A DNA stretch of 64,000 bases, taken from the NCBI GenBank assembly GCA_021234155.1, contig JAJEKV010000017.1, positions 6,981,253-7,045,252 on the forward strand, in the 5' to 3' direction. Positions 4,421-48,255 of the stretch are shown one piece after another. Position 1 is the first letter of the stretch. Each line of letters opens with the position of its first letter. The notes below the pieces were generated by a model, which saw only the letters and a program-made list of their open reading frames with translations, was not told the DNA's origin and searched no databases. The translations under genes and the position numbers were made by a program. The stretch comes from Isoetes taiwanensis (Eukaryota; Streptophyta; Lycopodiopsida; Isoetales; Isoetaceae).

Positions 4421-4589
4421 AAATGTGGTCAGTTGCACTTGGGACCTGGTGTACCTTTTTTGAACATGCATGCGGAGCCATGGCAACTGAAATAACAGAC
4501 TTTGGATCTATTGGCGATCCCGAATCATTCCAAAAAAATTTGCTACTACAAAATGTGTTCTTGACTTCTAATTGCGACACTGGGAGGAG

Positions 4590-7050
4590 GATAAATCCAA
4601 ACCCCATTTAAATTAGGTTTCTATTGCTTCTTGTTTTCAAACGCAGGCTTCTCCGACCATGTCTCGGGTGCAATGAATAAAACTCGACCTCCATAACGTA
4701 AACCCTACAATAACCTAGCATTGCACAGGGTTTATGTTTTGGAGGCCATACCCTAGCCAGATTGGACCAGGATCTTGCACAATGTCATGAGGTAGTGGGA
4801 GGGCTTTGGCGCTTGAAGATCGGAGCCCTAAAACCTTCCGTAGAAGTTCGACCCAAAGGTCCTCTCTGGAGGGTCCCCGCCCGCGGGCGGGCAACTATCC
4901 CATCCGGAACCGTGATCCGACTCTCGCCAGCGGACTCGAAACATCGACATTACCACGGAGACCAAGTTTAGTGGGCGAAGACCACCCCAACTCTCGAAGC
5001 GCCAAAGTAGCTCATGTCCAACATGTTCAGTAGTGAATTGTCCTTAGCGAGGGGTGCGAGGACTTTGCCATGTAGAGGGTTCGTGTTTCTTTTGCTGCAA
5101 AAATGACCGTGTAACTTGGTCCCTAGGGTAATTTTGCTGTTTGGGGACGACATGGCGAAGTCAAATCTCCATTCCTGACCCTTTGTAACTTGCCGAACGA
5201 CAAAACACTTGGGTTTCTACGCACGGTCGACTTGCCGGGACACTTTGCGGTTTGATATGTTCTCCCGACAGATCTTGAATTTTTTGAGCCTGCTCGAAGC
5301 AAGTTACTTGAATGGAGAATTCAGCGGTGGGATAGGGGAACCCGGCTCCGGAAGGGAGGCAGCATTTGCCCTCCCTGAGGAGCACCGGTAGGAAAGCCCC
5401 GCCTCGGTAAATCCAAACCCCATTTCGTCGGTTTCTATTGCTTCTTGTTTTCAATTTGCACTTCTTCGACCATGTCTCAAGTGCAACCCAGATAAAACTC
5501 GACCACCATAACGTAAACCCTACAATAACCTAGCAACGCACAGGGTTTATGTTTTGGAGGCCATACCCTAGCCAGATTGAACCAGGATCTTGCACAATGT
5601 CATGAGGTAGTGGGAGGGCGTTGACGCCAGAAGATGGAGCCCTAAAACCTTCCAGAAGAAGTTCGTCTCAAAGGTCCTCTCTGGAGGGTCCTTGGCCACG
5701 GGCCGAACTTCGCCCACCCGGGCCGTGATCGACTCCACGCCCAGCGGACTCGAAACATCGACATTACCACAGGAGACCAAGTTTTGTGGGCAGAAGACCA
5801 CCCCTGCTCCCCGAAGCGCCAAAATAGCTCATGTCCAACATGTTCGTAGTGAATTGGCCTTAGCGGAGGGTGCAGAATACTGCCCTGTAGAGGGTTCGTG
5901 TTTCTTTTGCTGCAAAAAGTGACCGTGTAATTTGGTCCCCAGGGTAATTTCACTGTTTCGGACGATATGGCGAAGTCAAATCTCCATTCCGGAGCCTTTG
6001 TACTGCCCGAACGACAAAACACTTGGGTTTCTACTCGGTTAGACTTCGGACACTTTAAGGTTTGATATGTTCTCCTGGACGGATCTTGAATTTTTTGAGC
6101 ACCTTTCGAAGCAAGTTACCTGAATGGAGAATTCAACGGTTGGGATAGGGAAACCGGGTTCCTGAAGGGAGGCATTGGCATTTGCCCTCCCGGAGGAGCA
6201 CCGTAGGAAAGCCCGCCTCGGTAAATCCAAATCCCATTTCGGCAGCTCTATTGCTTCTTGTTTTCAAGCTGCAGCTTCTCGACCATGTCTCAAGTGCAAT
6301 CGGAATAAAACTTCGACCTCCATAACGTAAACCCTACAATAACCTAGCAACTCCACGGGGTTTATGTTTTGGAGGCCATACCCCAGCCCAGATTGGACCG
6401 GGGATCTTGCACAATGTCATGAGGTAGTGGGAGGCGTTGGCGCTGAAAAGATGGAGCCCTAAAACCTCTTAGAAGAAGTTCGTCCCAAAGGTCCTATCCG
6501 GAGGGTCCTTGGCCACCGACGGGCAAGTCTCCCACCCGGCGAACCTGATCCGACCGCGCCAACGGACTCGAAACATTGACATTACCACGGAGACCAAGTT
6601 TCATGGGCGAAGACCACCCTGCTCCGGGCGCCAAAGTAGCTCATGTCCAACACGTTCGTAGTGAATTGGCCTTAGCGGAGGGTGCGAGAATCTTTACCAT
6701 GTAGAGGGTTCGTGTTTCTTTTCTTTTAAAAAAATGACCATGTAACTTGGTCCCTAGGGTAATTTTGTGTTTCTGGACGATATGGCTAAGTCAAATCTCC
6801 ATTCCTGACCTTTTGTATCTTGCCCGACGACAAAACACTTGGGTTTCTACGATTAGACTACAAGACACTTTGCGGAGGGATATGTTCTCCCCGGACGGAT
6901 CTTGAATTTTTGAGCCTGCTTTCGAAGCAAGTTACCCGAATAGAGAATTCAACGGTTGGGATAGGGAAACCCGTTCCGGGAAGGGAGGCATTGGCTTTTG
7001 CCCTCCCGGAGGAGCACCTTGGTAGGAAAAGCTGCCTCGGTAACGATGTC
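4590..7050 (+). repeat. Three direct copies of an ~815-bp unit
   Basis: Copies run at about 4590-5407, 5408-6221 and 6222-7050. Each starts near AAATCCAAACCCCATTT, continues through a TATTGCTTCTTGTTTTCAA word, the GTTTATGTTTTGGAGGCC word, an AATGTCATGAGGTAGTGGGAG word and a GGAGGAGCACC end. Copies differ by scattered substitutions and many one- or two-base indels, so no frame stays open across copies. This argues for a non-coding satellite-like unit. The last copy runs into the 19-bp minisatellite in inverted orientation at about 7062. Confidence 0.9.
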
Positions 7051-8755: not shown

Positions 8756-10834
8756 TTAGTCCACTGAAAAAAGAATACCATTATCGAACAAAACCATACC
8801 TCCACAAATCCACATGTAGGATTCTTTGAAAACAGGACATGTAGACCTGCCAAAACTGATGTTTTCAACAGTGGACCAAAAACCGGGGTGAGTGTGTCTC
8901 ATCTTCCATTGGAAGATTGGAATCCCATCTCTCACCCAAAAAGTGAACTGCAGAGGCCTGGAATGACCTTCAAGATCCAATGTATAACCATCCACAAAGC
9001 TCTTCCAATCGGGCACTTCTTCTATGAGAGAAGCTATAGGGTTTGGAGTAGTGCATTCATACAAGATTTCCATTAGCCTAGGAAAGTTGGTCCTTTGTTT
9101 TGTTTGCTTCAAGATACAACTATATTTGCCAAATAATGCATCCACGCATATATGCGGGGCATAAGAAACCCTAAATTAACTCTTTCAAATATCCCCACAC
9201 CATGTTAAGTAGGATAGGGAAGAAAACATCCACTGTTCTTATTTTGGCCAGCACAATTATCAAGTTGCAAGAGAAACCTTTTGGGTAGATCTTGAGGTTT
9301 AACACGTGAAGTTGAAGCTCCAACATGTTCATTAGACCCATGCTTCCTAAACCTTGCCTTGCTGAACTTTTCAATATTGTTAGGGTTTCCATCTAACAAT
9401 GCTCTATGTAGTGCCCTAGGCTAGTCATGTAAGGTCCTAGAGGTGACCATTGTATCCATTTTCATAGTTTCTCAAACACCTCATGATACTCCCCAATATG
9501 AAAATCTGACCATCACTCCACAACTCCAAACTAAAATGGCCATAGTAGGTTTGATTCTGCCCATGCAAGATTGCCCCATCATTGAGATCTGTAAAGGGTA
9601 TGATCTTCCACATGACTTTGGTATGTACTTGAATTGTGGAAGACAAGTCTTTTCTTTGGTCCATCTTGTCATGTATAATACATAAATAGTTATTGGGTTC
9701 CAATGCGGATAAAGTCCTCCACATCCAATAACATGATCTACATGATAGTTGGTCAGTCCATATGGTCCTTCATATGCTCCCTTATCCTAGCCCTTTGACT
9801 AGGTTGCACAGTCTTATCAAGAGTCTCCTTCAACTTAGCACATAAATTGCACTTTGCAAAGTTGTTTGAAGTTGCTATGGTGACATGATTGAAATGCTTC
9901 TTCCATAACCTACTAAAGCTAGGTTGGGATATTGGAAGAATTCCCAATTCTCGAAGTAGAAATTCACTTCTTCCAAAATACTCTTTTGAGTACAATGTGA
10001 TGGCAGCCTTTTTCTCAACAAATGCTCTTTCCTTTTCATCCCTTACGCTTTTGTGTGGCATAGACTACGCATTGAAATCAATATATTTTTCAAATATCTC
10101 CCTGGCGACCAAGGTCCTAATTTCTCAACAAACTATTATTTCCATGTAAAAGCAATCCTGTTCCCCTCTGCTTTTTTTTTGCCAATTATGCCATGAAGAA
10201 GTTGGAATTGCATGGATACTACGCCATGCTTTTGCACATATCCATTTGCCTAGCAAAGGGTATCTTTTTTCTTTTGGGTTTCTTTCATCTTGAAGTGCAT
10301 GCTTTCGAAGATTGTGTACATGTAGGTCCTCCTCCTCCATCAGCAGTGTACTCTTGAAAAGTGGCTCTTGCTTCCACCAATTGTTCTATTGTGAAGAATT
10401 GCATACAAGCACTCAACAACAATCTGAGCCCCTAACCTTCACCATTGTCTCACGTTTGGTGTCACTAATCAATTTGGCTATTTTGCTAGGATAATGTCTG
10501 GCAACTGATACTTCTCCCCTTTTGCCTAGGTTTAGAGTTCCAACTGCCAATGGATCAATATCAAGACAATCATTGTCCCCAACAACCTCAGGCTCTGGAA
10601 AAATATAATCCTCCACAAATTGAACACTACTTATAGGCCATGCCATGATGCAAGGAACCTCCAATTGCTTGACACAACCAAAACATTCCTTGTCACCCAA
10701 ACCTTTACCTTTCGGTTGTCTTCCAACATCAAAATTGCAATACCAATATTGTCTTCCCCTAGCCTTTCATCATTAACACTTGACCGGGATCCGCTAGCAC
10801 AATGACTCCTTGGCCTACTATTTCCTTGTTGCAC
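8756..10834 (-). pseudogene. Decayed DUF7869-like (transposase-like) gene
   Basis: Fragments in successive frames on the minus strand read as one protein. From the N-terminal side they are an acidic/serine segment (10834-10413), a segment with GKWICAKAWRSIHAIP and HNWQKKSRG (10340-10125), one with FNHVTIATSNNFAKCNLCAK (10061-9753), LCIIHDKMDQ followed by ILHGQ (9724-9437), PKRFLLQLDNCAGQNKN (~9320-9205), and a C-terminal piece (9145-8756). The set of a short Trp/Lys-rich motif, a CxxC pair, an xxHDxMDQ motif and an xLDNCxxxNKN motif is what I know from the DUF7869 family, which looks like a mobile-element nuclease with spaced Asp residues. At least four frameshifts break it, so it cannot make a full protein. 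Family name moderately sure; enzymatic role is inference. Confidence 0.6.
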
Positions 10835-11330
10835 TTGTGCATGATTCTCACCTTCTTATTCCTCCATTGCACCCTACTATAGAGGACTAATTGTTTTTCT
10901 TCAACATTCTTGCTAGGAGTTGGTTTTCATTGATATTGCTCTTTTCAATATGTTGCACATCATCTTGAGTTGGAGAGGCACCATTGACCTAGGCAAATTG
11001 CACCCTTTTTAGTCAATGAGTAAGAAAAAAATTACACCATATAAGATAAAAAAGTAATTACATTTATGGAATATGTAGAGGTAAATCAATTTTTTTAAAA
11101 GCAAAAATTCCTTGGAAATATGTTTAATATAATAATAACAATGGGTGTAAAACGAAATCATTTAAAACAAAATTTTCATTGGCAACAACAAAGGAAATGA
11201 CATTTATATAAATATATCAAATTTTAATTATCGAAAATTTGGATATATGATTCTGAAAAGACATATAGCTAATAGGCGTGAGAATTTATTATCCATAATA
11301 ATATACCCTAGATGATATAGTTTGGGGAAT
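10835..11330. other. AT-rich stretch without gene
   Basis: The 5' flank of the minus-strand DUF7869-like relic followed by strongly AT-rich sequence (11030-11300). No open frame of note, RNA gene or repeat boundary is visible. Confidence 0.5.
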
Positions 11331-11335
11331 TTAAA

Positions 11336-11432
11336 CGTGCGCTGGCGTGTTATTTGAGGCAATAAATTATTCACGCTAATTTCTAATTAACCCTATATAA
11401 ATCCGGTTCCGCGCTCTCAAGACCTCCATTAC
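11336..11432 (+). promoter_or_regulatory. Duplicated TATA promoter-like module, copy 1
   Basis: A block containing AATTATTCACGCTAA, then CTATATAAATCC (TATA-box-like, 11393-11404), then CTCTCAAG is repeated about 1.17 kb downstream at 12507-12603 with the same order and spacing. A reading frame starts at 11487, about 90 bp after the TATA-like word, which is a usual distance for a plant promoter. Promoter function is inferred from position and sequence only. Confidence 0.45.
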
Positions 11433-11486
11433 GTCCCAAATTTGTTTTTTCGCCCGCCATGAAGCGTTGACCTCGGCTCGACCTTC

Positions 11487-11825
11487 ATGAAGAACCCGAG
11501 GTCTCTTCAAAGAGGCGTCGGATTGAAGAACTTCAGCTCAATTCCCCCCATTGATTTTCTTGCCCGGTTCTCCTTTGATTCCTCCTCGGATGAAGAGGAG
11601 AAAGAAGAGGAGTTGGAGGAAGAGGAGGAGTTGAGCTCTCAAGAGCACATGACCGCCTCCTGCCTGGGGGTTGGCTTGACCACGAAGCGAGAGAATGAAA
11701 TCTCTGAAGAGTCGGAGGAGGAGGAGGAGGAGGCGGAGGAGGCGGAGGAGGAGGATTCGGAAGAAGGTCGACAATTCGACCAATTCTTAGAATGGTTGAG
11801 AGATGAACCAGGTTTGCATGTCTGA
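11487..11825 (+). CDS. Small acidic protein, possibly a first exon
   Basis: A 112-residue frame starting ATG at 11487. An upstream ATG at 11459 is closed after three codons, so 11487 is the first usable start. The protein is dominated by Glu-rich stretches (residues ~32-50 and ~73-97) flanked by Ser and ends in QFLEWLRDEPG. The codons GGT TTG after EPG contain a GT, so the frame may really be a first exon spliced near 11812. A TATA-like module lies upstream and an A/T-rich region follows. I do not recognise a family; low-complexity acidic tails occur in nuclear proteins and in transposon proteins. It could also be a chance frame in GAG/GGA repeats. Confidence 0.35.
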   Translation: MKNPRSLQRGVGLKNFSSIPPIDFLARFSFDSSSDEEEKEEELEEEEELSSQEHMTASCLGVGLTTKRENEISEESEEEEEEAEEAEEEDSEEGRQFDQFLEWLRDEPGLHV

Positions 11826-12506
11826 TTTTTTTTTTTTTTTGGCACCTTTCTTTCTTTTCTAACACCTTTCTTTCTTCTTTGTTGCGGGCGTGGAAGATCA
11901 ATGATCTCACCGATCTCTCAGGCGGCCCTTTCTTTTTGGTTTCTTCTGAGAAGCTTTGGACCGCGCCTCAGGGCATTTTTTCCTGTAATTTTGTGTAAAG
12001 CCTTGAGGGCAAATTGCCCTAAAGCCTTCGGGCATCTGTACATATAACTCTTATGAATGAAATCAAACAGTTTTCTTCATAAAATTTTCTTCAAACAGTG
12101 TTCTTCGAACAGTTTTTCTGTACATCAAATTATTTGAATTAAATCCAACTGTTTTCTCCAATTATTTTGTCTCCAAAATTTTTTCTAAAATTTTGTACAC
12201 GCAAATTTTGTCTCAACAAAGTCTCGGGACACTATAAATCAACCACATGAGAAATCTCGATTCATCCACCGAAACCATAGGAAATTTTCCTATACGACCT
12301 AAAACAATTCCCCAACCTTACAAGTCATTTTTTAGCCTTGATAATTTTGCCTTTAAAATCATTTTTAATTTAGCCTATATAAAATTTCTATATTTTATTT
12401 TTTCGAATGCAATAAATGGAATAAAATGCCGTGAGAATTTATTGCATAAAATGCAATATTCTCCATATATACCATATACATGTCATATCCAGGCGGGAAG
12501 GCCGTG

Positions 12507-12603
12507 CACGCCCGTGCGTGTTAATTCAAGCAATCAATTATTCACGCTAACTTATTTCTAATTATGCCTATATAAAATCCATTTCACGCCCTCAAAGTTC
12601 CTA
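12507..12603 (+). promoter_or_regulatory. Duplicated TATA promoter-like module, copy 2
   Basis: Second copy of the module at 11336-11432: AATTATTCACGCTAA, then CCTATATAAAATCC (TATA-like, 12567-12580), then CGCCCTCAAAG. It is followed at 12928 by another short first-exon-like frame. Preserved order across two diverged copies suggests duplicated 5' ends of one element family. Confidence 0.45.
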
Positions 12604-12927
12604 CATTTTCTTCCTTCCTTCATACGATTTGCGGTTTAAACCTGCGTGTTTGGATCCGCCCTCCTAAAATCTTGGTGGCGATTTATATTCAAAGAATGTT
12701 GGATGTTTGGTTTCGGCAATTCCTAACTTACTAAAAAGACTCCGCCTTTTGTTACGTAGCATCGTAGCGAGAGGACACGGAGGCTCAAATTAAAACCAAA
12801 AGCAGAGGACTAAGGTCTGCGAATCGAAAACCTCGGAATCCTTCCGTTCTTGAATCCTCCGTTCTTGAATCCTTCCAAAATCGAACTCAAGGTTAGTTTT
12901 CATTTAGTTTTAAAATTTTGCATCTCA

Positions 12928-13044
12928 ATGGCGGGTTCAATCCAAGAAGACAAGCTTTTGCATTTGCTCGAGATAGAGGAAGCGGATGATGTTTATGAAA
13001 ACCGTAATAGTTTTTATAAACTTCATCTCGCTTCTTTTGTTCGA
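12928..13044 (+). CDS. Short first-exon-like frame, unknown protein
   Basis: ATG at 12928 opens 39 codons (MAGSIQEDKLLHLLEIEEAD at the start) that end exactly at a good donor, CGA|GTAAAT, at 13044/13045. The peptide is charged and helical-looking with no family I recognise. It sits about 350 bp downstream of the second promoter-like module and 150 bp upstream of a long foldback. It may be the 5' exon of a mobile-element gene whose later exons are decayed. It may also be chance. Confidence 0.3.
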
Positions 13045-13193
13045 GTAAATTCTTGAGTTTCTCTTCTGAATTAATCATGCTATTGCATGCAAGTTTCTAT
13101 TATGAATAAGTGTAGTAGAAAGCATTAGAAAAATCGAAGATAATATTTGAAACACGCTAAGCGTGTTTCATGCTAACCTTAACCTTCAACATG

Positions 13194-13401
13194 AATACAC
13201 GCCGGCGTGCATTCAATGAGAGGGGAAAAAAAAAAAACCATGATAGATAAGTAAATAGATAAAGGCCGGGCAATTATTTACGTCGTGAGAGAGGAGAAAA
13301 AAAGCATGCATAGATAAGTAAATAATTGCCTGGCCTTTATCTATTTACTTATCTATCTGTACGGTTTTTTCCCCCTCTGAATGCACCCGAACGTGTATAG
13401 T
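13194..13401. repeat. Long foldback (hairpin), arms ~85-90 bp
   Basis: The core arms 13242-13281 and 13318-13357 are reverse complements over 40 bp with a single mismatch (GGCCGGGC against GGCCAGGC). Weaker pairing extends outward to about 13194 and 13401 through the A-run/T-run and the CGTGCATTCA/TGAATGCACC words. The 36-bp loop contains CATGCATAGATAAG, a partial third copy of an arm end. This is the structure of a foldback element or MITE, or of a small-RNA precursor. No target duplication could be fixed. Confidence 0.8.
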
Positions 13402-14990
13402 TTTTCCTATATAGCGGTTTACACGCCGAAATGCAAACAATTTATCCCTAGTTTCAACTTTTACGCTAAACACGCGGCGAGGCGTGTCTCTTGTTTATAA
13501 ATAAATAAATATAACACGCCCGGTGAATGCGATACTCAAGCTCACTTCCTATGGATAGATGCCAAGTTACATTAATCACCGGTTGGTGGCGAAGATGCAT
13601 TGGAATTACATTTGGGCCAGCAATCACCACGGCCCAACTCGGTTTCGGCTCCAATCTCCATCCGATTGAACAGCGGTAGAGCACTAGTCCTATTGGAGCA
13701 CCGATCTTGCAACCCCTGCAGTACTTGGATCAAGTAATGATGATGGCGGCAGAGCAGGGCAATGATAGATCACGGGCTCGAGGCCTCCCGTAATCGTCCT
13801 GAGGGTGGCCCTCTTATCTAATGACTTCGAATGCGGTACATGCATTGATCGAGTGAATCTCGATCCGTCGGCCGAGATTCAAAATGAGGAGCTGCATTTC
13901 TTAGTGGTTAGCCTCTACGCTTCGGATGCCCCAACACGAACCACTACCACAAAGGCGGTATCTGATGCAATGGAGATGGCTCAACCAATGGAGCGGGGAG
14001 ATGGAGCGGGAGGTGGAGCGGTGGTGGAGGTGGAGCGGCGGGGGAGGTGGAGCTAGAGCACAGTGTTTTTCTTTGGGGTTTTACCCGATCAGTTCACTAT
14101 GCCCAGCTATGGAAATGGGAGTATCGATAGCCCACTACTCGATGGCCTGGGCTTGAAACAAAATAGTCCGGGATTTTGCCCGGTTTATCCGGTTTATCCA
14201 GATTATATACAATTGTAAACTTTTTTCCAATGAATACAACAAATTTAGTCTACTTCTATATTTCTACAATGTAATACATGTTACATACCTTTTTAAGCGG
14301 TTTCTTGGCCATGCAACAAATGTTCCAACACTTTCTCCAACCGTATCCCCACCGGTGTCTGCGAGGTAAAGCTTCATCCGTAAGCGCAAAGATTAATCAA
14401 TCAGAACTTTCGGACATACTTATCCCCCTCGGAATTCCATGACGGTTTGCGATTCGAATCGATGGAGTCGATCTTGCATAATCCTACTTTCCTTTTCTGA
14501 TTTTTTAGTTAACATGAAACATTCATCTTCGACCGCTAATGCAGACAATTGCCTATTCGGACACCTTCACTTTGGAAATTATTGTACAAACTATAGGAAT
14601 GAGATGCTTACCAGTTTCAGAGCCATTCTTGAGAAGCCGATTCGAGTTCTCAAATCACAAAGCGCTATGGAAACGCAGCGGCCGGGGAAAAATTCGAGTT
14701 ACAAGAAAGCTTAGGTTAATTACATTTTGGCGGGATAAATTTGGCGGGATCTGATTTGGGTAGATTGGTTTTAAAAACTTAATGAAAGAAGTCGGGGACG
14801 GGTCTTCGTCATTATTATTTGTATGTGTCAAGAATATTTGGAAACTGCATTTTGTGTTTTCTTGAAATTCAAATTTCTCTCGTGCAGGTAGAAAACGCTA
14901 TTTCTCGTGACATTGTGTAGAAAAACTATTTCTTGACGACTTGAGCGCGTGATCCAGCGACCTTAGACTCTGTTGCTGGCGACTCAGGAG
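13402..14990. other. No confident gene; GGAGGT-rich patch
   Basis: Fragmentary frames only. 13980-14055 is a purine-rich patch of GGTGGAGCGG-type words. Short stretches look formerly coding but shift frame repeatedly, as elsewhere in this block. A CACGCCGAAATG word and an ACACGCGGCGAGGCGTGT inverted motif occur near 13425 and 13471. Confidence 0.35.
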
Positions 14991-15125
14991 ATGTCTTCTA
15001 AAAACGAATCGGAGGTCGGACGACCGAGGCAAGGGAAGGTGGAAGAGGAATCTCAAAACCCGGCTCTTCTCAAGTTTCAGAGGACGTTGATCAGAATACA
15101 CAGAATATACAGAACCCTATTCAAG
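14991..15125 (+). CDS. Short first-exon-like frame, unknown protein
   Basis: ATG at 14991 opens 45 codons (MSSKNESEVGRPRQGKVEEE at the start) that end at a donor-like AAG|GTATTT at 15125/15126. The peptide is basic at its end (RTLIRIHRIYRTLFK). I do not recognise it. Position suggests a 5' exon of the ParB/methyltransferase-like relic that begins about 450 bp downstream, but continuity cannot be shown. Confidence 0.3.
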
Positions 15126-15559
15126 GTATTTAATTTGCCACAGAATACACACTGTGTGGAGAGTATTATGCTTGCATGAATTTGAGATATTTCCTTGCCT
15201 TCAGTTAATATGCTTTGCATGAGTTTGAGTTATTATGCTTTGCATGAATTTTAATTATTGCAATGTCGTTAATGCTCGATTGTCCGTTTTGTAGAACATA
15301 ATTTTGCTACGTTTTTATAGAATATAGCAAATGTTAGATAGTTGGAGATAGCAATGTTCAATGAGGTTAAATAGTGTGAAATATGGATTCATAAAGGGTA
15401 TGTAGCTTAAAATGTGGATGCAAACTAATTTAGTTTCAAAATCACGCATAGCATGGTCAAGAATAGGAGCTACTAACACGCCAAGCGTGAATTGTACTAA
15501 TTTAGGTTTTAAATCGCATCTCTTGTTACGAAAAGTACTCTAAAAAATGTTCATCTTCT

Positions 15560-18500
15560 TTTTGCGGTGCCCAAGAGGAAGAAAACCCTAATAATTAGGG
15601 TTCTAATCCTGCCAAAAAAAGCAATGGTAGATGACCGGATGCGCACCATATGATCTCACCTTAGATGATGAAGGGCCGATTCTTATAGCAACCACTTGAC
15701 CACCGCCTGAAGAGGAAATGGGCGAGGGTGCCGAGTGAATGCGTTGACCTTGCCAAGACAAATGGCAAGCTCGAAGCTTAACTCTCTTCTCGAGGAAAAA
15801 GGGGAAGCGGCACAAGATGACCAAACAAGGGATCCTAGTAATCTCTTGTGAGGAAGAAGATGACACCAAACCGCAAATTGCTCTTGGAGATTACCACGAA
15901 GCGTAAGAAAGATCTCGCTTCGGACTTACTCACTTTGTAGAGCTATCGCATACAAGGATACGTTCATGAAGACAGATGTGAATCGGTGAGACATGTTTTA
16001 AGTATGGTTGGCCAACCAATGTAGCGATTCGCCAATATCTATTTGCCAAGGGGTTACGGTATGCGTGAGAGGCATGTTCACTAAACCGACACCAAGTCAC
16101 TATTTTTGCAAGCAAGCTAGGGAATTAGCTGACTTGAAAGCTTCTAAGAGGGTCCTAGATCTAGGGAAGGATGTTCAACCCTTGATTTATTCGGCAGGCA
16201 TGGAGGCTTCGTTTTTGAGAATGAACAGAACATGAACAAGTCAATAAATACTCGACCATTATCCATTGGGTCTTAAGGAAACTTTGCGATCCATGTGAAG
16301 TCCCTCATCCGTTCACCAAGCTCCATTTATGTTAGCGAAGATATGATCCACATGCCATGGAGATTGTTCGGAGCATGATTAGTAATCCGGTCAAATGCCT
16401 ATGCCGTGGATGTGCTACCTTGGGATATGATCTCGAACAAGCTGTGCTTTGTGGTGGAATGACGTCCGGAGCTATTATCAAGTGATGATATTAAATATGT
16501 CATCATCGGCGGGCAGCATTCCGTTGAGGCACAAAAGGCCATCATCGGCGAGAAAAAGCAGGCCAAAAAGTGTTCTACAATCACTATGCATATAGGAGGT
16601 GTCATTATCTTGGATGCCAATACTTCACACAGTAGATTTGGTTTGATTAGTGCAACTTTGAATGAAATGGGAAGACATTTCTATACGGGTAACTAAGCGC
16701 ATTAGGATGTTAGCATTTTAATATTCACGCCAGCGTGCTTTCAATTCAATTGAATTCATGCGCGGCCCGGTTTCATAAATTGAATTCACACAGGGCGTGC
16801 TTTCAAATCGGACCAATTCAGCCCGGTGTTTTCAAATCAATCGAATTCACGCCAGCGTTTGGAAACACGCCGGGCGTGAATGATTGATTTGAAAACACGC
16901 CCCGGCGAATTGGTCTGATTGAAAGCACACCGGCGTGAATTGCATTAGTAACTTAATTCATTTCACGCCAGCGTGATTTTTCTCTTGATCAATTCTATTT
17001 AAATCGCCGGCTGTTTCTATTCTATGATATCGATTCAATGTCCGTACTATTGCAAACCATACGCGAACAACCGCTACGCCCAACAACGATTAGGTGGAAT
17101 ATGGTTGCCCATTGCCCATCGACGATGCATGGTCAAAGTCCGAGGCATTCAAGCCTGCTGGAGCCGGACTGGCAGCATAACAATTATACAGAGAAGAAGA
17201 AGACCGCAAGAAAATCAAAGAAAAAAGGTGGTGATGACATTGCAGTCCTTCCAAAGCTCATCTAGCGTGTCGGGACCAACGGACTCGTATAAGATTGTGT
17301 TTTGTAAGGAGGCAGATGGCTCAAGTGGAATGAATTCCCGGACGCTTTATGCACAAGGGAAGCTGCCGAGATACTATGGGTAGGGTGCCTCTGTTGATGT
17401 AAGCATCTTTGACTTGAATGTGACAGAGATGAGAAAGACTCGGGGCTAGACGACGCCAGAGACCATTTGAGTTTTAGAGCGGTGCTTAAAGAAGGAAGTC
17501 TTATACAAGAAGGGTGCTTTCACCAAGGATAGGATGTCCTTCGTTGAGTGTTGCAACCATGTGAAGGATGTACGCATACAATGAAGTCACCGTAGGAGCC
17601 GAAAGTTACAAAGGCTATCGGGGATGTGGCATTATCCGAAATTGGATTCTTTGGACAAATACAAGGTCGAATGATGACATCAAGAAGTTTGTATTCGGTC
17701 AAAGGACTTCCTAAAAATTGGAAGGCTAAAAATACAAAACATAAGGAGACTCTACCCCTAAGGTGCTTGGCCGAGTTGAGAAGAAAAGTGGCCCTTGTGA
17801 AGAAGATTACCGGAGAAGACGACAATCATCCGGTTATTAGGTCTCCATTGGGTACAAAGGTCTCTTTGCCGAGAATCAACTTCGGCCTTAAAAATATAGC
17901 ACTCTTTGTGTTGGACAGCGGGGGGTGGGAGAGGAGATATGGGCATGAACTAGAAGGACTACAAAGACTTCTTTACCAAATTGTATAGGATTGACAACCG
18001 AGAGGTCCTTCACTATTGTCATCGTTTGTCCTTGGTGAGTCAAAATACATGCACTATCCACTGCTCATGATCTGGAGTGCCTCAAAGTTATTAGGGAGGG
18101 ATGCCTAATATATGATGTTAAGGATAATGAGCTGCGAACAGAACGGAAGATGGCACATGTGATCTTTATTATGATATCCATGCTGTCAGACGAGGAATAT
18201 GATATTGCTAAGGCCAAGGGTGACAATAGCAGTGCATGGGAATGTTTTCTTCTAGATGATCCAGACTTAAGAACTATATTCTTTCATACGGATCAGGATC
18301 AGTCAGAACAGGATGAGTCAGAAGAGGATGAGGATCGGGACCCCCTCCTAAGTGGGGAAATCAAGTACGAGCTACAAACTAAGGAGAAGGGCCCCTTAAA
18401 TAAAAATGGATTTCCCCTGCCTATGGTCAAGCACCTGTCGGAGGCATTTGCTCCAATTGATACAACCCGCTTGGAGCTTCATGTTGGAGGTTATATTGCC

Positions 18501-18572
18501 CGAGAGGCTCTTATGGGTGCAAGAAGATGTCACTGCTTTGTGAGTGATGAGCAGGCCAAAGACTTTCTTTAA
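15560..18572 (+). pseudogene. Decayed ParB-like / DNA-methyltransferase-like gene, copy 1
   Basis: Plus-strand pieces in changing frames read as one protein. First come RYDPHAMEIVRSMISNPV (~16338-16395) and AYAVDVLPWDM; then KYVIIGGQHSVEAQKAI (~16493-16543) followed by VIILDANTSHSRFGLISATL. The order DP..M....I.NPV / IxGGQHSVEA resembles the ParB/DGQHR nuclease-like fold. This part ends at a donor-like GTAACT at 16689. After a foldback, further pieces follow: ALFVLDSGGWERRYGHELE (~17900), and a long frame 18150-18572 ending LELHVGGYIAREALMGARRC then CFVSDEQAKDFL. The last part aligns without gaps to LDFFSAGTASRVALMQGKRS and VVFEKDDK in the second copy (20878-22287), the SAM-binding motif of N6-adenine-type DNA methyltransferases. 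LDSGGWE lies where the DPPY catalytic motif is expected and is degenerate. Domain names are inference from motifs. Confidence 0.5.
16725..16985. repeat. Long foldback with CACGCC/GGCGTG motifs
   Basis: Arms of about 80-85 bp (16779-16863 and 16866-16946) pair around an axis near 16864 with almost no loop. Matching words in order are ATTCACACAGGGCGTGCTTT, GGACCAATTC, TTTTCAAATCAATC and CACGCC, answered by the reverse complements on the right. Outer CACGCCAGCGTG words occur at 16731 and 16967. The structure lies directly after a donor-like GTAACT (16689) and before coding-like sequence resumes near 17024, so it reads as an intronic foldback element or small-RNA-type hairpin. Confidence 0.8.
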
Positions 18573-19827
18573 CCATTCCTCATGCATGTGCTTCCCAAAT
18601 CTCCTAAAGGCCCTTATGGCAACCTGAAATCATCAGCAATCAAAAGTCTCGTAGACTTGTCCAATTCGAAAGTGGACATTGCTTCTGGTGAGGGAACTAG
18701 TAATCCGCAGCCTGATAAGGAAAGCAATAATGAACAAATAGCTGCTAAACTGGCTGCTCAAAGTACTGTGATGGCGGCGAACATAGGGAATATGTTGTGC
18801 CATGTATCGATAATTTCGAGTCTGGAATTGCCTCGCAAATAATGCAATCTGTTATTATCAAACCTAATATTATCATCTATCGAGCAAGCAATTTTGGTCT
18901 CATCTATGTTAGCAACTTGCTCTTCATTTTTGCATATTTCAATTCGCATATGAAACGTCACACGTGAATCGCAACCTTATGTTATTTTTGAAGTCCAAAA
19001 AAAAAGATTAAAAAAAACAAAAACCCCCTAGAAGACAATAGCAGGTTGGCGTGATTTTGGAGTTGACATAATCCCAATTTAATTGGATGATGGTTTTGTG
19101 CTAAAATCTTTATATTTGAGAGAGTGCTTTCTTCAGGTACTGATATGGCCGATTCTAATTCTTGTCTGGTACCTCATACAGAAATGGTGCTAAATCTTGC
19201 TTCAAGTAGGATAGGATTTCTCTTCTTATTTTCAAATTACAAGAAGATTTATTAGTTCATGTGGACTGGTTGTATCATTCGGAAGCCTATCTGCCTTATT
19301 CTTGTGTCATCACATATTCTCTAGTTACCAGGTGGAAGGATTTTATATGCTTCATATGCTTCAGATTGGTTATGACAGTTTGAGTATTTGCTTTTAGAGC
19401 TCTCAATAGTTTCTGTAAGTAGAGGATGAAGATGTAGAGATTACTCCTGTAGTAATTCTCTAGTTGCACTAAAATATTGTACCTTTTATTATTATATAAT
19501 ATAAAAAAAATTCGTACCCTCTTAAAAAAAAAAGGGGAAGCGTGAAACATTTAGTCGCCGGGGCAAACCGTCGGCGACAAAATCCCTGCCTGTGGAACCC
19601 ACAACTATCATTGAGCCATCGCTGCCGTTAATTCTACCAAACCCCTAGCCATGAAAGCCCCTGATGCACCTTCCAAGAAAATATTCACATTCAAGTTTAG
19701 ACTACAGCAAGACGTACCAATGACAGCTCCCAGCCGTCCAGTTCCCAAACACCTCATTCAGTCAAAGGTGGGCCATTCTCAAATGCCCTTGGATGGCCAA
19801 ATGCACCCAGCAGCAACTCTAATTTGA
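18573..19827. other. No confident gene
   Basis: 18582-18842 continues as a low-complexity Ser/Asn/Lys-rich frame that may be the tail of the preceding relic. 18843-19550 is AT-rich with poly(A/T) runs and no structure I can name. 19555-19580 holds a short GCCGGGGCAAACCGTCGGCG inverted motif. Confidence 0.45.
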
Positions 19828-20790
19828 AGTTTTTTTTTTTGATGAACGTGGACCTTTATTACTCAAAAGAATACAAAAAGTACATGGGGGACTCAAAACC
19901 CAGTGGAGAAGATGTCCACTAGAGCAACACTACCCACCACATACATAACAAAGAAAAGCAAAAAATACATAACACCACGAGCACAACTGTTTGCTATGAA
20001 CAAGTCTGAATCTGCAGATATCACTCCCAAATGACTCTGTTGACGTCCTCCTTTAAGGAAGAACACTGGTACGCCTTTACAATGCGACTACGAGCATCGC
20101 TAAGCACTTGTGTATTAGAAAAGACCTGTCCCTTGAAGATGAGGAGATTTCGTCTCTTCCAGATGGACTAGATAATCCACGCAGATGCTAAGTGGAAAGC
20201 CCTCTTTGCCAAATTGTCCCAAGAACTAGGATAGACTGATAGCAGGACCTGCTGACTATTCAAGTCACAATGGAAAAGGCTCAAAAGCCACTGCCATGCA
20301 AGTCGAGCATGGTGACACAAGAAAAAGCAGTGCTCAATTGTCTCGTTCCTCTGCATGCAAAGAGGGCAGATCACAGAGACTTCTGGACGAAATCGATGAA
20401 CAACAGTGTTTACCCGCACACATCTATGAATGATCTGCCACCATAAAATAAATAGCTTAGGGTGGAGCAATTTATCCCATACCCATCGCCAGACTGCTTT
20501 TCGATGAGGCTCAGGGATAGCCAAAGGCCACTTTGGCGATGGAGGCAACACCTCAGGATGAAGCAGGACCACATACATTGAGTGCACCAGGTGCTTCTCC
20601 TTAACACTGCCATGAACCACCCAGAGCTGGGGAGCCACGTCTTGTGGGTGTGGAGGAAGTGTAGCAGCTACTTTTTCCCAAATGCTACGGTCCCACCGAA
20701 GTTTGGTCCTAAGGAAGAGAAGAAGATGGCAGAGCAAACTGCTTAAACTAGAGCAGTTCAAGCGATTTTATCCGATGGACATAAATTGGT
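19828..20790 (-). mobile_element. 5'-truncated LINE fragment (zf-RVT end)
   Basis: The plus strand starts with a T-run at 19830-19841, i.e. a poly(A) tail on the minus strand. The minus-strand frame 20761-20168 (197 residues) contains KLFILWWQIIHRCVRVNT, then CPLCMQRNETIEHCFFLCHH, the zf-RVT zinc-binding domain found at the C-terminus of plant LINE reverse transcriptases. Coding similarity continues past an in-frame TAG at 20168-20170 into SIWKRRNLLIFKGQ, so a Trp codon has probably become a stop. Reverse transcriptase and endonuclease are absent, as expected for a 5'-truncated copy. It lies between the two methyltransferase-like relics. Confidence 0.85.
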
Positions 20791-20877
20791 TTATGGGCAG
20801 GAAATGATCATGATCAGCCCCCAGAAAAGCCAAACAAAGATTTTTTCAACAAAACTTGGCTCAGATACCTCCGAGGC

Positions 20878-22287
20878 ATGTCCAACGCAGAACTAGCCCA
20901 GTTGCTAGATGAAATTCTAGAAGGAAAGACCTACCTGAAAGTGCAGTCTAGATATTCCGGCAGGTTTGATTGCAAACAAAGGCCAATTGACATCAGAACT
21001 TTAACGTCCAATAGCGTTGTCGAAAAGGAATACACGTTTTTTGAACTGTTAGTGGATTTTCCAGATTTCACTAAACGAAGGATATTAGATATTACTGGTG
21101 CCGACGCCAAATACGTGAAGGCCAATTGGAATAAAGTTCATGGGTTTGATAACTTGCCCATTTCCTTTTTGGAACCTATCAGATCAATGTTAAAGCTGGA
21201 AGAGGCCAGTAGAATGAAGGAGAAAAACAATATTGTTCACCTGGTCACGAAAGAGGGTATTCCTGTGTTTGCCAGCGTTTTTGAAAATGCAACCCTGGCC
21301 TTTATTGATTTACGTGGTATAACTAAACTATGGGAATGTAAGAGATACTTCGAGCTATTTACAAGGATAGCCAGCATGACAACAGCGAAGGTTTATCATT
21401 CGGTTATATTACTGCGCTCTGTGAACTTGCCAAACTGTTTGTACAGTCAGAACCAAATTCAGAGGGGTTCGCATATTACCGTGGGCACATATGACGAGTA
21501 AGAGTGGGCGAGCAAAAAGAAGATGAAGAAATATCAATATTACATCACTCAAATGTGTATCAACAGGAGCAATGCACGTGTTTTGCGAGTGCAACCTGAA
21601 TTAGAACTACGCCTCAACTAGTTGAACAATGCTCCGAAGAGCATTCCCCTGCTGCCCATGCTACTAACTGAATGCAGATGAAGATGAAAAAAAAAGTAAA
21701 AAAATACCAGATCTACTTCACAGGTAAGCCGAGATACATTTGGGTTGCAATGGATGGAGACCATGTCTTGAAATGCCAGCTAAAAACATCATACGCATAT
21801 CACATTATTGCTCAGCTGGTGCCTCAAGATGGTTGCATCCTAGACTTTTTTTTCTGCTGGCACAGCTTCACGTGTTGCACTCATGCAAGGAAAGCGGAGT
21901 GTGGTGTTCGAGAAAGACGATAAAGTATGCAGATTTCTTAGATCTTTTCTTGAAACGCTGGAGAAAATGGCAACTGGTATCTCGGAAGAAGAGAACGCAG
22001 AGGAGAGAATGTACAAGAGGGTGACACTTCAAGGATTAATCTCAGGATTACCCAAGGCACGGACGTATCTAATCTGGATCAGATATTACAAGGGCTAGAT
22101 GAGAAGAGCTACGAGGAAAGGATGCAGGAGACGAAAAGACTATTGGAGTCCACTGAGAAAGGTATTGAGGCCTTAGAGCCTACTTTTCAAAAGCTTGAGG
22201 ATCTTAATCAGTTTCTTGATCGCGCATTACCCATCGTTACAGGGGGGAGGTACATTCGAATTTATAGGTCCTGACGATATTGAAAAC
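20878..22287 (+). pseudogene. DNA-methyltransferase-like relic, copy 2
   Basis: A clean 207-residue frame (20878-21501) is followed by broken frames to 22287. Residues ~139-152 read TLAFIDLRGITKLWE, where N6-adenine methyltransferases carry (D)PPYG...WD; Asp144 is kept but PPY is not. Downstream, after stops, AMDGDHVLKC leads to GCILDF and then, after a T8 run (21846-21853), SAGTASRVALMQGKRSVVFE and KDDKVCRFL. Together these form motif I of a SAM-dependent DNA methyltransferase, placed after motif IV as in the beta class. One T fewer would join them. A coiled-coil-like tail (RMQETKRLLESTEKGIEALE) follows to the stop near 22287. The pairing with copy 1 (15560-18572) is clear; catalysis is unlikely. 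Confidence 0.55.
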
Positions 22288-25009
22288 AACGAGCTCGAAG
22301 AGGGTGGAACCCAGGAGCACGACATTTCTTGCAGAAAATTAAAAATATTTCATTCTACTGAATTCTCAAATGAGCTAGAACAGGAGTTGCTTGGATCTGA
22401 AGTCCTCATATTTTGCATCATATGGGTAGCATGCGACTTATTTCGTGCTCAAATAGAATTTTGAATTTCTCAAAATAATTAATGTTTGCTTAATCTTAAG
22501 GAGGTGCCGCTTATGCAAATGCATGCAATCATTAAGGTCTTAATCGATTGCTATGATTGTTTAGTCTCCGTGATTTTAACAAATGACACGCGGACGATCA
22601 TCAAAGGATACACAGTCACCCTTGAATGTTCAACTAATGTCCTTTGAATCGATGACGATTTCCATCGAAAAGGGAGATGAAATCATGATAGTGATATTGA
22701 AAAGTTCCAAAACAGAGGCATTCTAGGTCTTAGAATGCCAGACACTATAAAAAATGTCCTAGTAGAGTTCCCACAAGTGTAATGTTCCTTGCCTAAACGT
22801 ATATCTAGGAAGTCATTTTGATACAACCTTGTCACCAATACATCACCCGATATATATGAAAGGTCGATAACTCTAGACACTAATTTTAAACCTATATCTC
22901 ACTCAAAATACTATAGTATTGCTGGATCTAATATATGTCCAACTCCTGGGGAGTCATCTAATTATTCGACATCCTCCACGTGAACCCACAAATGAGCATC
23001 TTATTTTGAAGAAAACCAGTCGTGCCATGGCCGCCAGAGTGTTTTGAAAATATACACTCAAATGATATTTCTAACGGATTGAATGATGGCGTGCATCTTA
23101 ACCTATGGGGATTCTGCTCCTACAATATCTACGCATTTTTATATAATAAATAAGTCATGCTTGTTGTATGTTAGGGATAATGTGCAGAAGGAGGCAATTT
23201 CGTCTGATAAGGGCCTGGCTAGCCAGGTCTAGTCCAGGCGAAATTGCCTCCTTCAACTCATCTTCCAGCGTAAAGTTTTTGTTGGGGGGGACTTCATGCC
23301 ACCTGGCATCATTACGACCACACAATTTAAGATTACAAGTTGTAATCTAGGCCAAGAATCCAACAAAATTATCTCCCCTCGCTTTACGTGTATATGATGG
23401 ACTAGTGGGTATTGGCGTTACTTTAATCCACATATGAGTACTATAGTCTACGTGCTTTTAGGAAGTTTTAAATGTGCACCTTTTTCTTATTCGATATAGT
23501 TGTTGATTTATACACCTAGTGGTTATTCTCCTCTAGATTGAAAATAATGTTATAAATATGCTAGGATTGCATGATGTACATTGACTCAAACCAAAAGAGC
23601 ATGATTGACATATTTGCAGCTCATCGATAATTCATGACAAAGCATTTCTTGAAACAATGAATTAATTCAGTTTATTCTGCTTCAATTTATGTTAATGATG
23701 GTGAATGCTCACGCAAATTGTTTTGTTGTGAAAATGATGAGATGGTCATTCATCCACTCCCCTAATATTTTACAATTCTTTAGCTATTACCTAATTAGAT
23801 TCCATCATTCCAAAAGTGTGTAAAATGGTCTATGCTGCGAATGTCTTTATTGTCTACAACACAACTTGACAAATGAGTTTAACGGATAAATACTAAGATT
23901 TCAGCAAGACAAATGAAGGTTGGAAATAGTTAGCTATGCCTAACATCAACATCAGTGGCAACAGAAAGATTCGAGCAGTGTGGTGTAGGGTGTACGTGTA
24001 ATGTTTTAGAAGTTATATACAGCATGTACAAGATTGATACGCCTACCAATGTCGTTAAACAATTCACCAAACGCAAGGACAAGAGACCAACAGGCGAGCG
24101 AACACCATATATAGGGGTGCAAGGGGCTTCTGTTTCTTGGTTTCCTCTCTCAACTAATAATGGACAATTAGGTGACAGACAAACAAAACATCACTTCCGA
24201 TTCCTTATTTTCCCCTCAGCTAATAGAAGAAGCAATTTATGCGCATGACGTAAAGTTCCTAATTTTCAGCATAACATAGATCTTCCTTATATTCACCTCA
24301 ATTAATACCCAATGAGGTGACAAAAAAAAAATCAAAACATGACTTCTATTCCTTAGTTTTCGTCCAAACTAATAGACAATTAGATTAGTTAGATGACAAA
24401 CAATTAAAACACGGCAAAAAGTGCAAAAAATGTATTGAATGAAGGAAAAAGGCAAAGAAAAAGACAGATAGATAGATACAATTTTAAACCATGAACATAT
24501 ACATCTGCAGGGAGAAAAATTAGAAAAAAAAAATATACCTGACCACTTTCAAACAATTCTGTGGTATATACGAACGTACCTATACATAGACGGCCAATAT
24601 ATATGTAATAACGTAGTGTAATGATAAACAGAATATGATTGAATCTTTTATATATGTGTGTATTTTGGATCGTGCGCGTAATATATTAGCTAGAATTTCC
24701 GTTTGTTCCAGGAAGCTTAACGTACCCCATTCCTCAGCCGGATTGATCGACCACTGAACAAGCTCCCATTTTGAGCTCTGTCCATACCAAGCTCCCAAAG
24801 TATTTATCCGGCTGTTATTGGATTTGGGTCTCTGCCTTTATCGATTTTGGGTCCCTTTTCCTGGTGCCTTTTTTGCCTATTGTGGCTTTCAAAATTTGAT
24901 CTACCTTAAGCTTATGGTCGGCTGATTGTTGGAAACCGGCAAGCGGTTGTCTGAATGGGGAGTTTTGTGTTATGATCACCTCCAAGTTTGAGGCTGAGAA
25001 AGCTATAGC
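22288..25009. other. AT-rich intergenic region
   Basis: No gene is recognised. 24130-24420 contains two diverged copies of a short block with CAACTAATAATGGACAATTA-like and GACAAACAA words. A strong small hairpin lies at 23187-23254. The last few hundred bases probably hold the 5' flank of the GT31 locus; I see no convincing TATA box there. Confidence 0.5.
23187..23254. repeat. Small two-part hairpin
   Basis: Perfect 16-bp stem, GAAGGAGGCAATTTCG (23187-23202) against CGAAATTGCCTCCTTC (23239-23254). A perfect 14-bp palindrome CCTGGCTAGCCAGG (23214-23227) sits at the centre of the loop. The size is that of a short foldback or small-RNA hairpin. No element ends are identified. Confidence 0.8.
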
Positions 25010-28000
25010 ATGAAGAGAAACAAAGCAGACAACTCTTGTCTGGGGCGTTTCAGGTTTATACATGTGGTGTTATTGGTTATTTTATGTTTTGTATTACTTA
25101 TGAGCCTTGAGGCACCTGCTCTGTTCAAGCCAAATCTTATTCCCTATTCGCACGCAGCCCTTGAAGTGATTGAGGCTGGAAATATAGATGCTATTAGAAG
25201 CAGAGTCAGTGTAATGCAGGATGCCTCTAACCAACATAGAAGGTTTGTTATTCCACGGGTAAGTCAAGTAGGTCCTGAGATTGATGCAAAACGGGAGCAA
25301 AGCTCTGCAATAAAAGAAGAAGAAAGAAAACTAAGTGAGAAGGAAGAACACTCAGCACATAGAGGCACACAAAGTCCATTGCCTGATCTTCGGACTGTTG
25401 CAGCCGGGGCATGGGCAAGTGGTGCTGTTGCTTGGAAGGAAATGGAAGAAACAATAGCAGGGCAGAATTCAACCATAAGACACGTTAAAAAGGAAGGAAT
25501 TGTAGAGAATTGCCCCAAGATGTTGCTTTTATCAGGGGAAGATCTTAAAAATGCAGGAAATATCATGATGCTCCCTTGTGGTCTCATGTCAGGTTCATCT
25601 ATTACTGTCATTGCCAAACCTAAAAAGGGGCATATAAAACCCAGGCCTAACATTGCAACAGTAGTAGATGATGTGAAAAATGTCATAGTCTCTCAATTTA
25701 TATTAGAGCTACAAGGATTAAAGATGGTGGATGGCGAGGATCCACCACGCATACTACATGTTAATCCAAGGTTGAAAGGGGACTGGAGTGGAAGGCCTGT
25801 TATTGAATTGAATACCTGCTATCGTGGCCAATGGGGGATTGCACAACGCTGTGAAGGCTGGGTATCTCCAGATGATGAGGATCCAGGTACTTTAATTGTT
25901 TTGGCTTTTAAAATATGTAAGATTTATGTTTACTCACTAAAGTGCATACTGTCAAATAGGTTGCTTCTATATTGTAGTTATTTATTTTTCCTTGTGTGTT
26001 TCAGTTGATGGACTAGCAAAATGCCAAAGGTGGATCCAAAATGACAATGATACATCAGAGGATTCTAAGTCAACATGGTGGAACAAGTTAATTGGACATT
26101 CTGCAAAATCAAGTGTGGAGTGGACCTATCCGTTTGTGGAAGAGCAATTGTTTGTCCTTACTATCAGGGCAGGATGGGAAGGCTATCACATTAGTGCTGA
26201 TGGAAAGCATGTTGCGTCGTTTCCATATAGAACAGTGAGTAATTGTTAGTCATGCATAATTCAAGAATCTTGAGCGGTCTATGTAGTAAATTATCATTCT
26301 CACAATTGGCTGATGCAGGGTTTTATTTTAGAAGAGGCTACAGGCTTTACTATTTCTGGAGATATTGATGTACACTCTATTGTGGCCACATCATTGCCAT
26401 ATTCTCATCCAAAGTTCACTCCACAGCAGCTTATAGAGGAATCTGAAACATTGAGAGCACTTCCATTGCCAAAGACCCCAGTCGATCTGTTTATTGGAAT
26501 TCTTTCAGCAAGCACGCACTTCGCAGAACGGATGGCTGTTCGCAAGACTTGGATGCAGTCAAAATCAATTAGATCATCGGGGGTGGTAGCACGTTTTTTT
26601 TGTTGGGATGGTATGGGTCCCCTCTATTCTGGGAATGTTAAACACTATTAACTGGATATGCTATACTAAACATGAATTGTTTTCCAGCACCCACATAAGG
26701 ATATCAATGTGCAAGTGAAGGAGGAGGCTGACTACTTTGGAGATATGGTTATTTTACCGTTTATGGACCACTATGACTTGGTTGTGCTGAAAACTATTGC
26801 TATTTGTGAATATGGGGTAAGTTTTTGAAATAATCTTGATACTTCTCGCCTTTGTTTTTATTACTTATATTTGGACTTGCCAACATTCATTCTCAGGTCA
26901 AAAACATATCAGCTAGGCACATAATGAAAACTGACGATGACACATTTGTGAGAGTGGAAAAGATTCTGAAGATGGTCCGGGTAGCTCGTAAAGCACGTGG
27001 ACTATATATGGGCAATATTAATCAATTCCATAGGCCATTGAGAGTTGGGAAGTGGGCAGTGACATATGAGGTAATATGTTTATTATTTTTCTTAGTATGC
27101 TAATTCAATTCTTCTGAATATATTTGTCACTGATGTTTAAGGATGTTACTTTAAGCTATGCAAAAATAGGCACACATAATATTTTAACAGACTTATAGGA
27201 CAAAACTGCCCCCCTGGAAAAAGCTGATATTGTGGACAAGAACGCAATGCTTTTTGCAATAAGGGAAGGAAGCGAACTCCCCTTCTATCCTTTCTCATTG
27301 TTTCTATTGGACTTCTAAGCTTCGAGCTTTCAATATTTAACTTCAAGGTCTCTTCATCTCATATGGAAGCCATGAACTCATGAGTATCGCAAAACTTTTA
27401 ACTGTGGCACAAAATTTGGTGCACAAATCTTAATTGCTGTTAGAGGATCCATAGCTGAATCTAAATATTGTCCTGTAGAATGGTACTCAAATATTCATCT
27501 ACTTGCATTATGTTTCATCTGTCTTAATTGGCGGCCCTGAAAGCTTCTGCATAGTACTTTATGAAAAGGATATTAGAATGGAAGGCTATATTACATGCCC
27601 ATGATAATAATCTTAACATAACAATGTTAAAGATAGATCTCACATATTCATGTTCATTTGTTTTCTTAATTATACAGGAATGGCCAGAGGAAGAATATCC
27701 CCCATATGCAAATGGGTCCAGGATATGTAATTTCTTCAGATATTGCTAAATTTATCTTTGTCACAGCATGAGAACAACACACTCAGGGTACGTATTGTGT
27801 ACATCAGGTTCATATTTTTGTAATTCTTAAGACTTATTAATTGCTTAACATTTGTGGGATGTGCTGCAATTATTTAAGATGGAAGGTGTCAGCATGGGAA
27901 TTTGGGTGGTCCAGTTTAACCAATATTATGCTGCTCACTATGTACACAACTTGAAGTTTTGCTAGTGGGGTTGTGTTGAAGATTATTTCACGGCTCATTA

Positions 28001-40425: not shown

Positions 40426-40600
<175 letters not shown>

Positions 40601-48242: not shown

Positions 48243-48243
48243 G

Positions 48244-48255
48244 TGGTATCAGAGC
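48244..48255 (+). other. Primer binding site for initiator tRNA-Met
   Basis: TGGTATCAGAGC begins one base after the 5' LTR. It is complementary to the 3' end of plant initiator tRNA-Met, the usual Ty1/copia primer. The gag ATG follows at 48264. Confidence 0.95.

Follow-up and report, generated by a model that had tools for sequence, protein, structure and literature searches.

Two methyltransferase-like gene copies in Isoetes taiwanensis as probable remnants of a two-gene DNA transposon superfamily with a methylase-derived accessory protein

What are the two methyltransferase-like gene copies found between positions 15560 and 22287 of a 64,000-nucleotide stretch of the Isoetes taiwanensis genome (positions 6981253-7045252 of contig JAJEKV010000017.1; the whole stretch is called the window hereafter), and may they belong to a mobile system that marks DNA? 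A sequence-only reading had seen there two copies of one gene family, which would join a ParB-like, nuclease-like part to a domain of beta-class DNA methyltransferases, in a system that could mark DNA with N6-methyladenine (6mA); the sequence blocks that it quoted are indeed present. Searches of the genome (1,658,258,908 bases in 1110 contigs) indicate that its core idea, a mobile system with a beta-class methylase-like protein, was largely right, and that it had missed a second gene, encoding a protein with the DUF7869 domain. If architecture and mechanism are taken together, both copies are probably degraded or incomplete representatives of a superfamily of DNA transposons with two genes, one of them for a methylase-derived accessory protein. 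The architecture, a DUF7869 gene divergent from an accessory gene with a GxHS motif and a methylase-like domain, appears very likely, while the mechanism proposed for the accessory protein is offered as possible but tentative. Three parts follow one another from 15560 onwards: the accessory gene of one element, which reaches 18793; a fragment of a long interspersed nuclear element (LINE), unrelated to both copies and identified by Pfam and genome search as a 3' end (19830-20701, minus strand); and what is left of another element (about 20742-22491).

The first copy belongs to element 1, a family-1 DNA transposon with terminal inverted repeats (TIRs) at 8896-19095 (plus strand), which is colinear with full-length copies of 12.25 kb. 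A first genome search (best 40 of 6457 candidates scored, 80 match rows) gave at least 38 rows of copy-1-type sequence above 1000 bits with 80-94% identity, some of which are pieces of one copy; five LINE rows and the window's own match are not counted here. Seven other family-1 copies were taken in stretches of 20 kb (L010, L012, L014, L015, L017, L019 and L021), and two of them are colinear over 12.25 kb. Family 1 carries the TIR AACCATCAT[T/C]CAATTAAATTGGG at both ends, the right one of element 1 being CCCAATTTAATTGGATGATGGTT at 19073-19095 (plus strand), and all three copies with both ends are flanked by identical 4-bp target site duplications (TSDs; ATTG, ATGC and AGTA). With such TIRs and TSDs, family 1 is a TIR DNA transposon, as expected from the mobile repeat family proposed earlier. 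Element 1 lacks the first 1 kb or so and has an internal deletion of about 1.15 kb at 18793. In all seven other copies, an exon resembling NIF/FCP1 phosphatases (PF03031, Pfam 7.8e-9; motif DLNGV) lies 3' of the methylase-like exon, one of the seven being incomplete because the alignment range ends there; the deletion at 18793 removed this exon from the window copy. Outside element 1, the window has repeats of about 700-800 bases at 4540-6952, which resemble sequence found upstream of the C1103 copy (69-73% identity).

The accessory gene of copy 1 can be read on the plus strand as a series of putative exons. A candidate first exon (14992-15124), starting with ATG and MSSKNESEV..., would end at a donor-like CAAG/GTATTT. 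The second exon region, with the GxHS block, would span 15573-16690, in line with the open reading pieces of eight copies, between an acceptor-like TTTGCAG (seen in other copies) and a donor-like GGTAACT; when the eight copies were compared side by side, the GxHS region was continuous and ended at the donor-like site. It includes the ParB-like motif IIGGQHSVEA (16502-16531), which has a homologous region in family 2. GC-rich repeats at 16700-17000 probably represent an intron, and the third exon region, carrying the methyltransferase-like domain, would run from about 17000 to about 18793, where the deletion cuts it. This last region shows LFVLDSGGWE (17902-17931, with LDSGGWE at about 17911-17931) at the position of motif IV and LELHVGGYIAREALMGARRC (18471-18530) at that of motif I.

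The second copy is a truncated member of a larger, related family, family 2, and lacks the ParB-like block. Its methyltransferase-like exon, broken over several frames, lies at 20785-22271 (plus strand), where a family-2 hidden Markov model (HMM) matches five pieces with E values from 1e-139 to 2e-14, and DNA identity over 20836-22192 is 66-67%. In family 2, an exon lies ahead of the ParB-like block; LKLEQFKRFYPMDINWFM at 20742-20795 (plus strand) was recognised by eye as its remnant. The right end of the remnant, ...AATGTTTGCTT (22436-22491, plus strand), matches positions 9199-9257 of family-2 element A in BLAST (E 4e-5). The motif-IV position reads FIDLRG (21301-21318, plus strand; continued by ITKLWE), and motif I, LDFF/SAGTASRVALMQGKRS (21840-21900, plus strand), is split between two frames by a run of eight T. 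Family 2 is the larger of the two: a 238-aa open piece of copy 2 has at least 150 places in the genome (best 150 of 2905 candidates, window included), down to 54% identity, and many of these are stop-free, while an intact 657-aa family-2 exon has at least 76 matches (best 67 of 5859 candidates scored), several of them stop-free, including one at 56% identity. Among six natural family-2 exons, the ratio of non-synonymous to synonymous changes (dN/dS) is 0.12-0.54 in all 15 pairs, silent sites being saturated in pairs with the window copy; this exon is under purifying selection. In the two family-2 elements for which 16 kb of sequence was examined, the NIF/FCP1-like exon is absent, and the right ends, ...AATTAATTAAATCGTGCTT, resemble the family-1 end. 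The 25-base form of this end occurs at 599 + 663 genome places with up to three mismatches, against none in the control.

Do the two copies then belong to one gene family? Within the window, tblastn did not join them, and the copy-1 pieces of the window itself gave no match to the family-2 HMM at E <= 10. The link holds because of relatives elsewhere in the genome: the ParB-like regions of families 1 and 2 match each other at 43.2 bits (0 of 2000 shuffles as good), with a family-1 reading that had been fixed before family 2 was seen, and the family-2 HMM scores seven natural copy-1-type open reading frames (ORFs) at 5.0 to 17.5 bits.

The gene that makes a transposon system of these repeats lies on the opposite strand. 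In element 1, the DUF7869 protein of family 2, used as a tblastn query, picked out the broken core of the putative transposase gene at 8888-9297 (minus strand; E 3e-20 and 4e-9) and the N-terminal part of the same gene at 9605-10280 (minus strand; E 7e-26). The domain is recognised by Pfam (PF25273) in a family-1 relative (6.4e-12) and in one family-2 element (3.6e-37); in the second family-2 element, which likewise has a DUF7869-type gene on the opposite strand, the N-terminal part is seen and the core lies beyond the stretch read. The DUF7869 protein is most likely the transposase. When 150 copy-2-type places were set against 97 DUF7869 matches (best 93 of 13942 candidates scored), 20 pairs lay within 20 kb where 0.35 were expected; all 20, one of which is the element that supplied the DUF7869 query, were divergent with DUF7869 upstream, and the gap was 5.0-5.8 kb in 15 of them. 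An independent test relied on Pfam models alone. It used 150 places of N6_N4_Mtase (PF01555), all of those scored being above the curated cut-off (best 150 of 1442 candidates; the control genomes, being prokaryotes, pass in 9 of 14 cases), and 150 places of DUF7869, again all above the cut-off (best 150 of 9904 candidates; controls 0 of 14). Here 22 of 24 pairs were divergent and two otherwise arranged (0.54 expected), with a gap of 4.7-5.6 kb in 17 of the 22. These pair counts come from the best-scored places and say nothing of the share of DUF7869 elements that have a second gene. The superfamily thus extends beyond the window's two families and includes sister families in which Pfam still recognises a DNA methylase domain, for example at C976:451678-452409 and C1039:76120-76806.

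The second gene was compared with beta-class methylases both by single pieces and by family profiles. Single window pieces gave nothing both significant and relevant in Pfam, PHROGs, NCBIfam or the PDB, the best lead being a match of CcrM to the portion of copy 2 around motif I (E 0.063). Against an HMM of motif I of bacterial beta-class methylases, built from YhdJ and 27 IMG/VR relatives, the copy-2 block scored 14.0 bits once the frame break in its T run was bridged (0 of 2000 shuffles as good), its raw pieces ranking 1st and 16th among 1255 window pieces (E 0.16 and 5.9). Copy 1 scored 1.7 bits in its family reading (30 of 2000 shuffles as good) and -1.0 bits with the letters of the window itself (342 of 2000), so that the S-adenosylmethionine (SAM) motif I announced for both copies is supported in copy 2 and is not significant in copy 1 alone. 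With hhalign, the family profile aligned with the beta-class motif-I region at P 4e-5 (probability 70%), and at P 9e-6 (83%, 62 columns) once family 1 was added, with 0 of 100 column-shuffled nulls as good in each case. The full-length comparison, which is weak, pairs VFIDIRG with IFADPPY and LDFFSAGTASR with LDPFAGSFTTG. In a PDB profile search, the methylase M.RsrI came up over motif I at E 0.2, behind a cytochrome c555 construct (0.0057) and ahead of the GTPase Der (0.48). Together with the sister families, these profiles indicate that the domain is homologous to the motif-I region of beta-class N6/N4 DNA methylases and carries a SAM motif I, in line with the relation first proposed. Of the 20 family-2 sequences examined, 14 have an intact motif I. 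The catalytic DPPY, which the sequence-only reading had rightly described as degenerate, is replaced in all 20, by D-x-R-G in 19 and by N-x-R-G in one, and copy 1 shows LDSGGW at this position. Family-2 proteins are therefore probably not ordinary methylases, and 6mA marking by the window's two families is doubtful because DPPY is missing.

The N-terminal part calls for a more modest wording. The GxHS pattern occurs in 12 of 20 family-2 sequences (copy 2 being without this region), and 'ParB-like' may be used as a description at the level of the motif, not as a statement of membership. Indeed, the ParB model PF02195 had no genome match above its cut-off, the single match (19.2 bits, below 26.3) lying elsewhere in the genome, in a search whose six frames cannot bridge the intron that splits the block; nor did Pfam list PF02195 for the spliced family-1 reading. 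A narrow YbdM profile (55 sequences) gave no significant match, with an hhalign P of 0.064 and scores of 1.1 bits (48 of 1000 shuffles as good) and -2.2 bits (511 of 1000). Searches of the PDB, NCBIfam and PHROGs with the ParB-like region returned nothing, and no relative was confirmed in viral contigs, prokaryote contigs or phage records, the last giving one hit at E 3. The 'nuclease-like' and ParB labels of the sequence-only reading are accordingly reduced to a motif.

Is the damage in these genes real? In the gene region (15429-19095 of the window) of the eight family-1 copies, differences from the majority affect 14.1% of bases at CG/CHG sites, about 12.4% (12.35%) one base away and 5.0% two bases away, falling to 1.4-3.3% beyond two bases and to 2.1% at more than three bases. 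The share of C-to-T or G-to-A changes is 46% at CG/CHG sites, as against 6% beside them. Deamination was rejected as the main cause, since it would leave neighbouring bases unchanged, while the bases beside CG/CHG differ nearly as often as the sites themselves. The assembly was made from nanopore flow cell 9.4.1 reads with racon and pilon, according to its description (PMC8566536). Base-calling error at methylated cytosines, in repeats poorly polished by short reads, would best explain these differences; the family-1 copies would therefore be about 2% apart, and much of the frame damage would be an artefact. Greater age of the window copy may also play a part. This error pattern also suggests that the elements are heavily cytosine-methylated.

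From a mechanistic point of view, the fixed divergent pairing, the TIRs and the selection on the exon lead us to propose a transposase with a co-travelling accessory factor. Gene 1 would encode the DUF7869 protein as transposase. At a typical distance of about 5 kb and in divergent orientation, gene 2 would encode an N-terminal GxHS part resembling ParB/DGQHR proteins followed by the methylase-like domain, the two exons being, as we infer, spliced into one transcript. The accessory protein may then bind the DNA of the element through its methylase-derived domain. Modification of adenine or N4-cytosine is possible in families whose methylase Pfam still recognises; in the window's two families, with D-x-R-G in place of DPPY, the protein would more likely be a partner that binds SAM or simply binds DNA. 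In both cases, it could help the transposase to locate the ends, or protect the element from silencing. Methylase ancestry, suggesting contact with DNA, and the cytosine methylation suggested above make a factor for end recognition or for escape from silencing plausible.

Several observations weigh against this reading of the locus. Taken by itself, copy 1 barely resembles a methylase. Profiles compared over their full length agree poorly (P 0.0016, probability 6.5%), PF01555 scores window copy 2 at 16.1 bits, below its cut-off of 26.7, and it was not listed in a Pfam search with an intact family-2 exon. Moreover, the placement of both genes within one TIR pair is seen in family 1, the family-2 elements having been read at their right ends.

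Other explanations must therefore be weighed. The accessory protein might be an active DNA methylase in all families, with D-x-R-G as a tolerated motif IV, the elements marking themselves with 6mA or N4-methylcytosine (4mC). Such an activity would account for the conservation of motif I in family 2, for purifying selection and for sister families above the PF01555 cut-off, but the replacement of DPPY throughout the family-2 sequences speaks against it, as does the fact that most PF01555 genome hits span only positions 133-220 of the profile and miss motif IV; we regard it as unlikely. It is less likely still that the methylase-like gene is passenger cargo, captured once and playing no part in transposition. 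Cargo does get captured, as the extra NIF/FCP1-like exon of family 1, lacking in family 2, illustrates, but the arrangement is fixed across diverged families, and the dN/dS values above also speak against this reading. An action on RNA or some other substrate, or a Rossmann fold without methylase identity, would agree with the lack of a canonical DPPY and the weak scores of single copies; it appears quite improbable, given the fit of the motif-I region to the beta-class profile, the appearance of M.RsrI as the methylase in the PDB search, and the sister families above the PF01555 cut-off. Finally, chance resemblance in dead repeats, or two unrelated repeats side by side, may be suspected from the broken window copies and the near-chance scores of copy 1, but is hardly conceivable in view of stop-free exons of up to 657 aa in relatives, the selection on them and a pairing far above expectation.

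Other features were noted in the rest of the window. One foldback lies nearby, at 23175-23266, with two 46-nt arms, no spacer and 74% complementarity. A 332-aa ORF with a galectin-type domain (PF00337, 4.3e-10) lies at 25010-26008 (plus strand), and an intact 413-aa ORF for a Harbinger-like DDE_Tnp_4 transposase (4.9e-22) at 41004-42245 (plus strand), adjoined by ORFs at 40421-40990, the neighbouring ORF being without Pfam match. A Copia-type retrotransposon with long open pieces of gag, integrase and reverse transcriptase occupies 48204-52301 (plus strand). On the minus strand, LINE-type reverse transcriptase pieces with zf-RVT occur at 42936-46515, a further RVT_1 piece at 33421-33975 and part of an aspartyl protease at 34281-35111. 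A transfer RNA gene lies at 62108-62193 (plus strand; Rfam 48.7 bits), with an ARAGORN anticodon of two bases only.

How does the proposed two-gene transposon compare with known systems? Beta-class methylases such as YhdJ, CcrM and M.RsrI (PF01555) share with it the motif X/I region and its surroundings, as well as the order of motif IV before motif I; unlike them, it has D-x-R-G (family 2) or L-D-S-G-G-W (copy 1) for DPPY, a long extra N-terminal part, and a eukaryotic transposon as carrier. ParB-methylase fusions exist in bacteria and phages and show the same order, a ParB-like block and then a methylase-like domain, but here ParB is unconfirmed and no relative was found in viral or prokaryotic contigs. 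Sola superfamily DNA transposons also have a 4-bp TSD, a likeness of TSD length alone. Fungal DNA transposons (KDZ, Plavaka, hAT and others) encode TET/JBP dioxygenases, and Vandal MuDR elements of plants an anti-silencing protein, as described in PMC12730594. The fungal elements are likewise DNA transposons that have gained a gene descended from DNA-modifying enzymes, but with a dioxygenase instead of a methylase, with other transposases, and in fungi; the Vandal elements likewise place an accessory gene beside a transposase, which is of another type, and an anti-silencing role is only supposed in our case. We know of no methylase ancestry for the Vandal protein. TET/JBP-carrying DNA transposons are the nearest published kind that we have seen. 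A partial listing of titles and beginnings of abstracts in the open-licence literature, which leaves most subscription papers and Repbase outside, gave no description of elements like these, and no article on DUF7869 was found in the open-licence literature.

As a caution, most of the damage that genes of this kind show in the present assembly would be due to sequencing error at methylated cytosines, and repeat genes may be widely mis-annotated in it. In its boldest form, which we hold to be rather doubtful, the proposal would be that of a lycophyte transposon superfamily, possibly with thousands of copies, whose autonomous elements carry a methylase gene of bacterial ancestry joined to a ParB-like domain, its product being active in part of the families and kept as a pseudo-enzyme in the rest, the elements writing or reading a base mark on their own ends for transposition or escape from silencing. 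If this were true, a vascular plant would have a transposon-borne source of 6mA or 4mC. Whether 6mA in plant DNA is real is disputed, according to PMC12695648, and a very large, partly intact and selected transposon gene family of beta-class type would be a concrete candidate enzyme for plant 6mA or 4mC. Transposons with epigenetic genes are already known, and an accessory protein derived from a methylase would be an addition to them; DUF7869, a domain of unknown function in Pfam, would gain a likely role.

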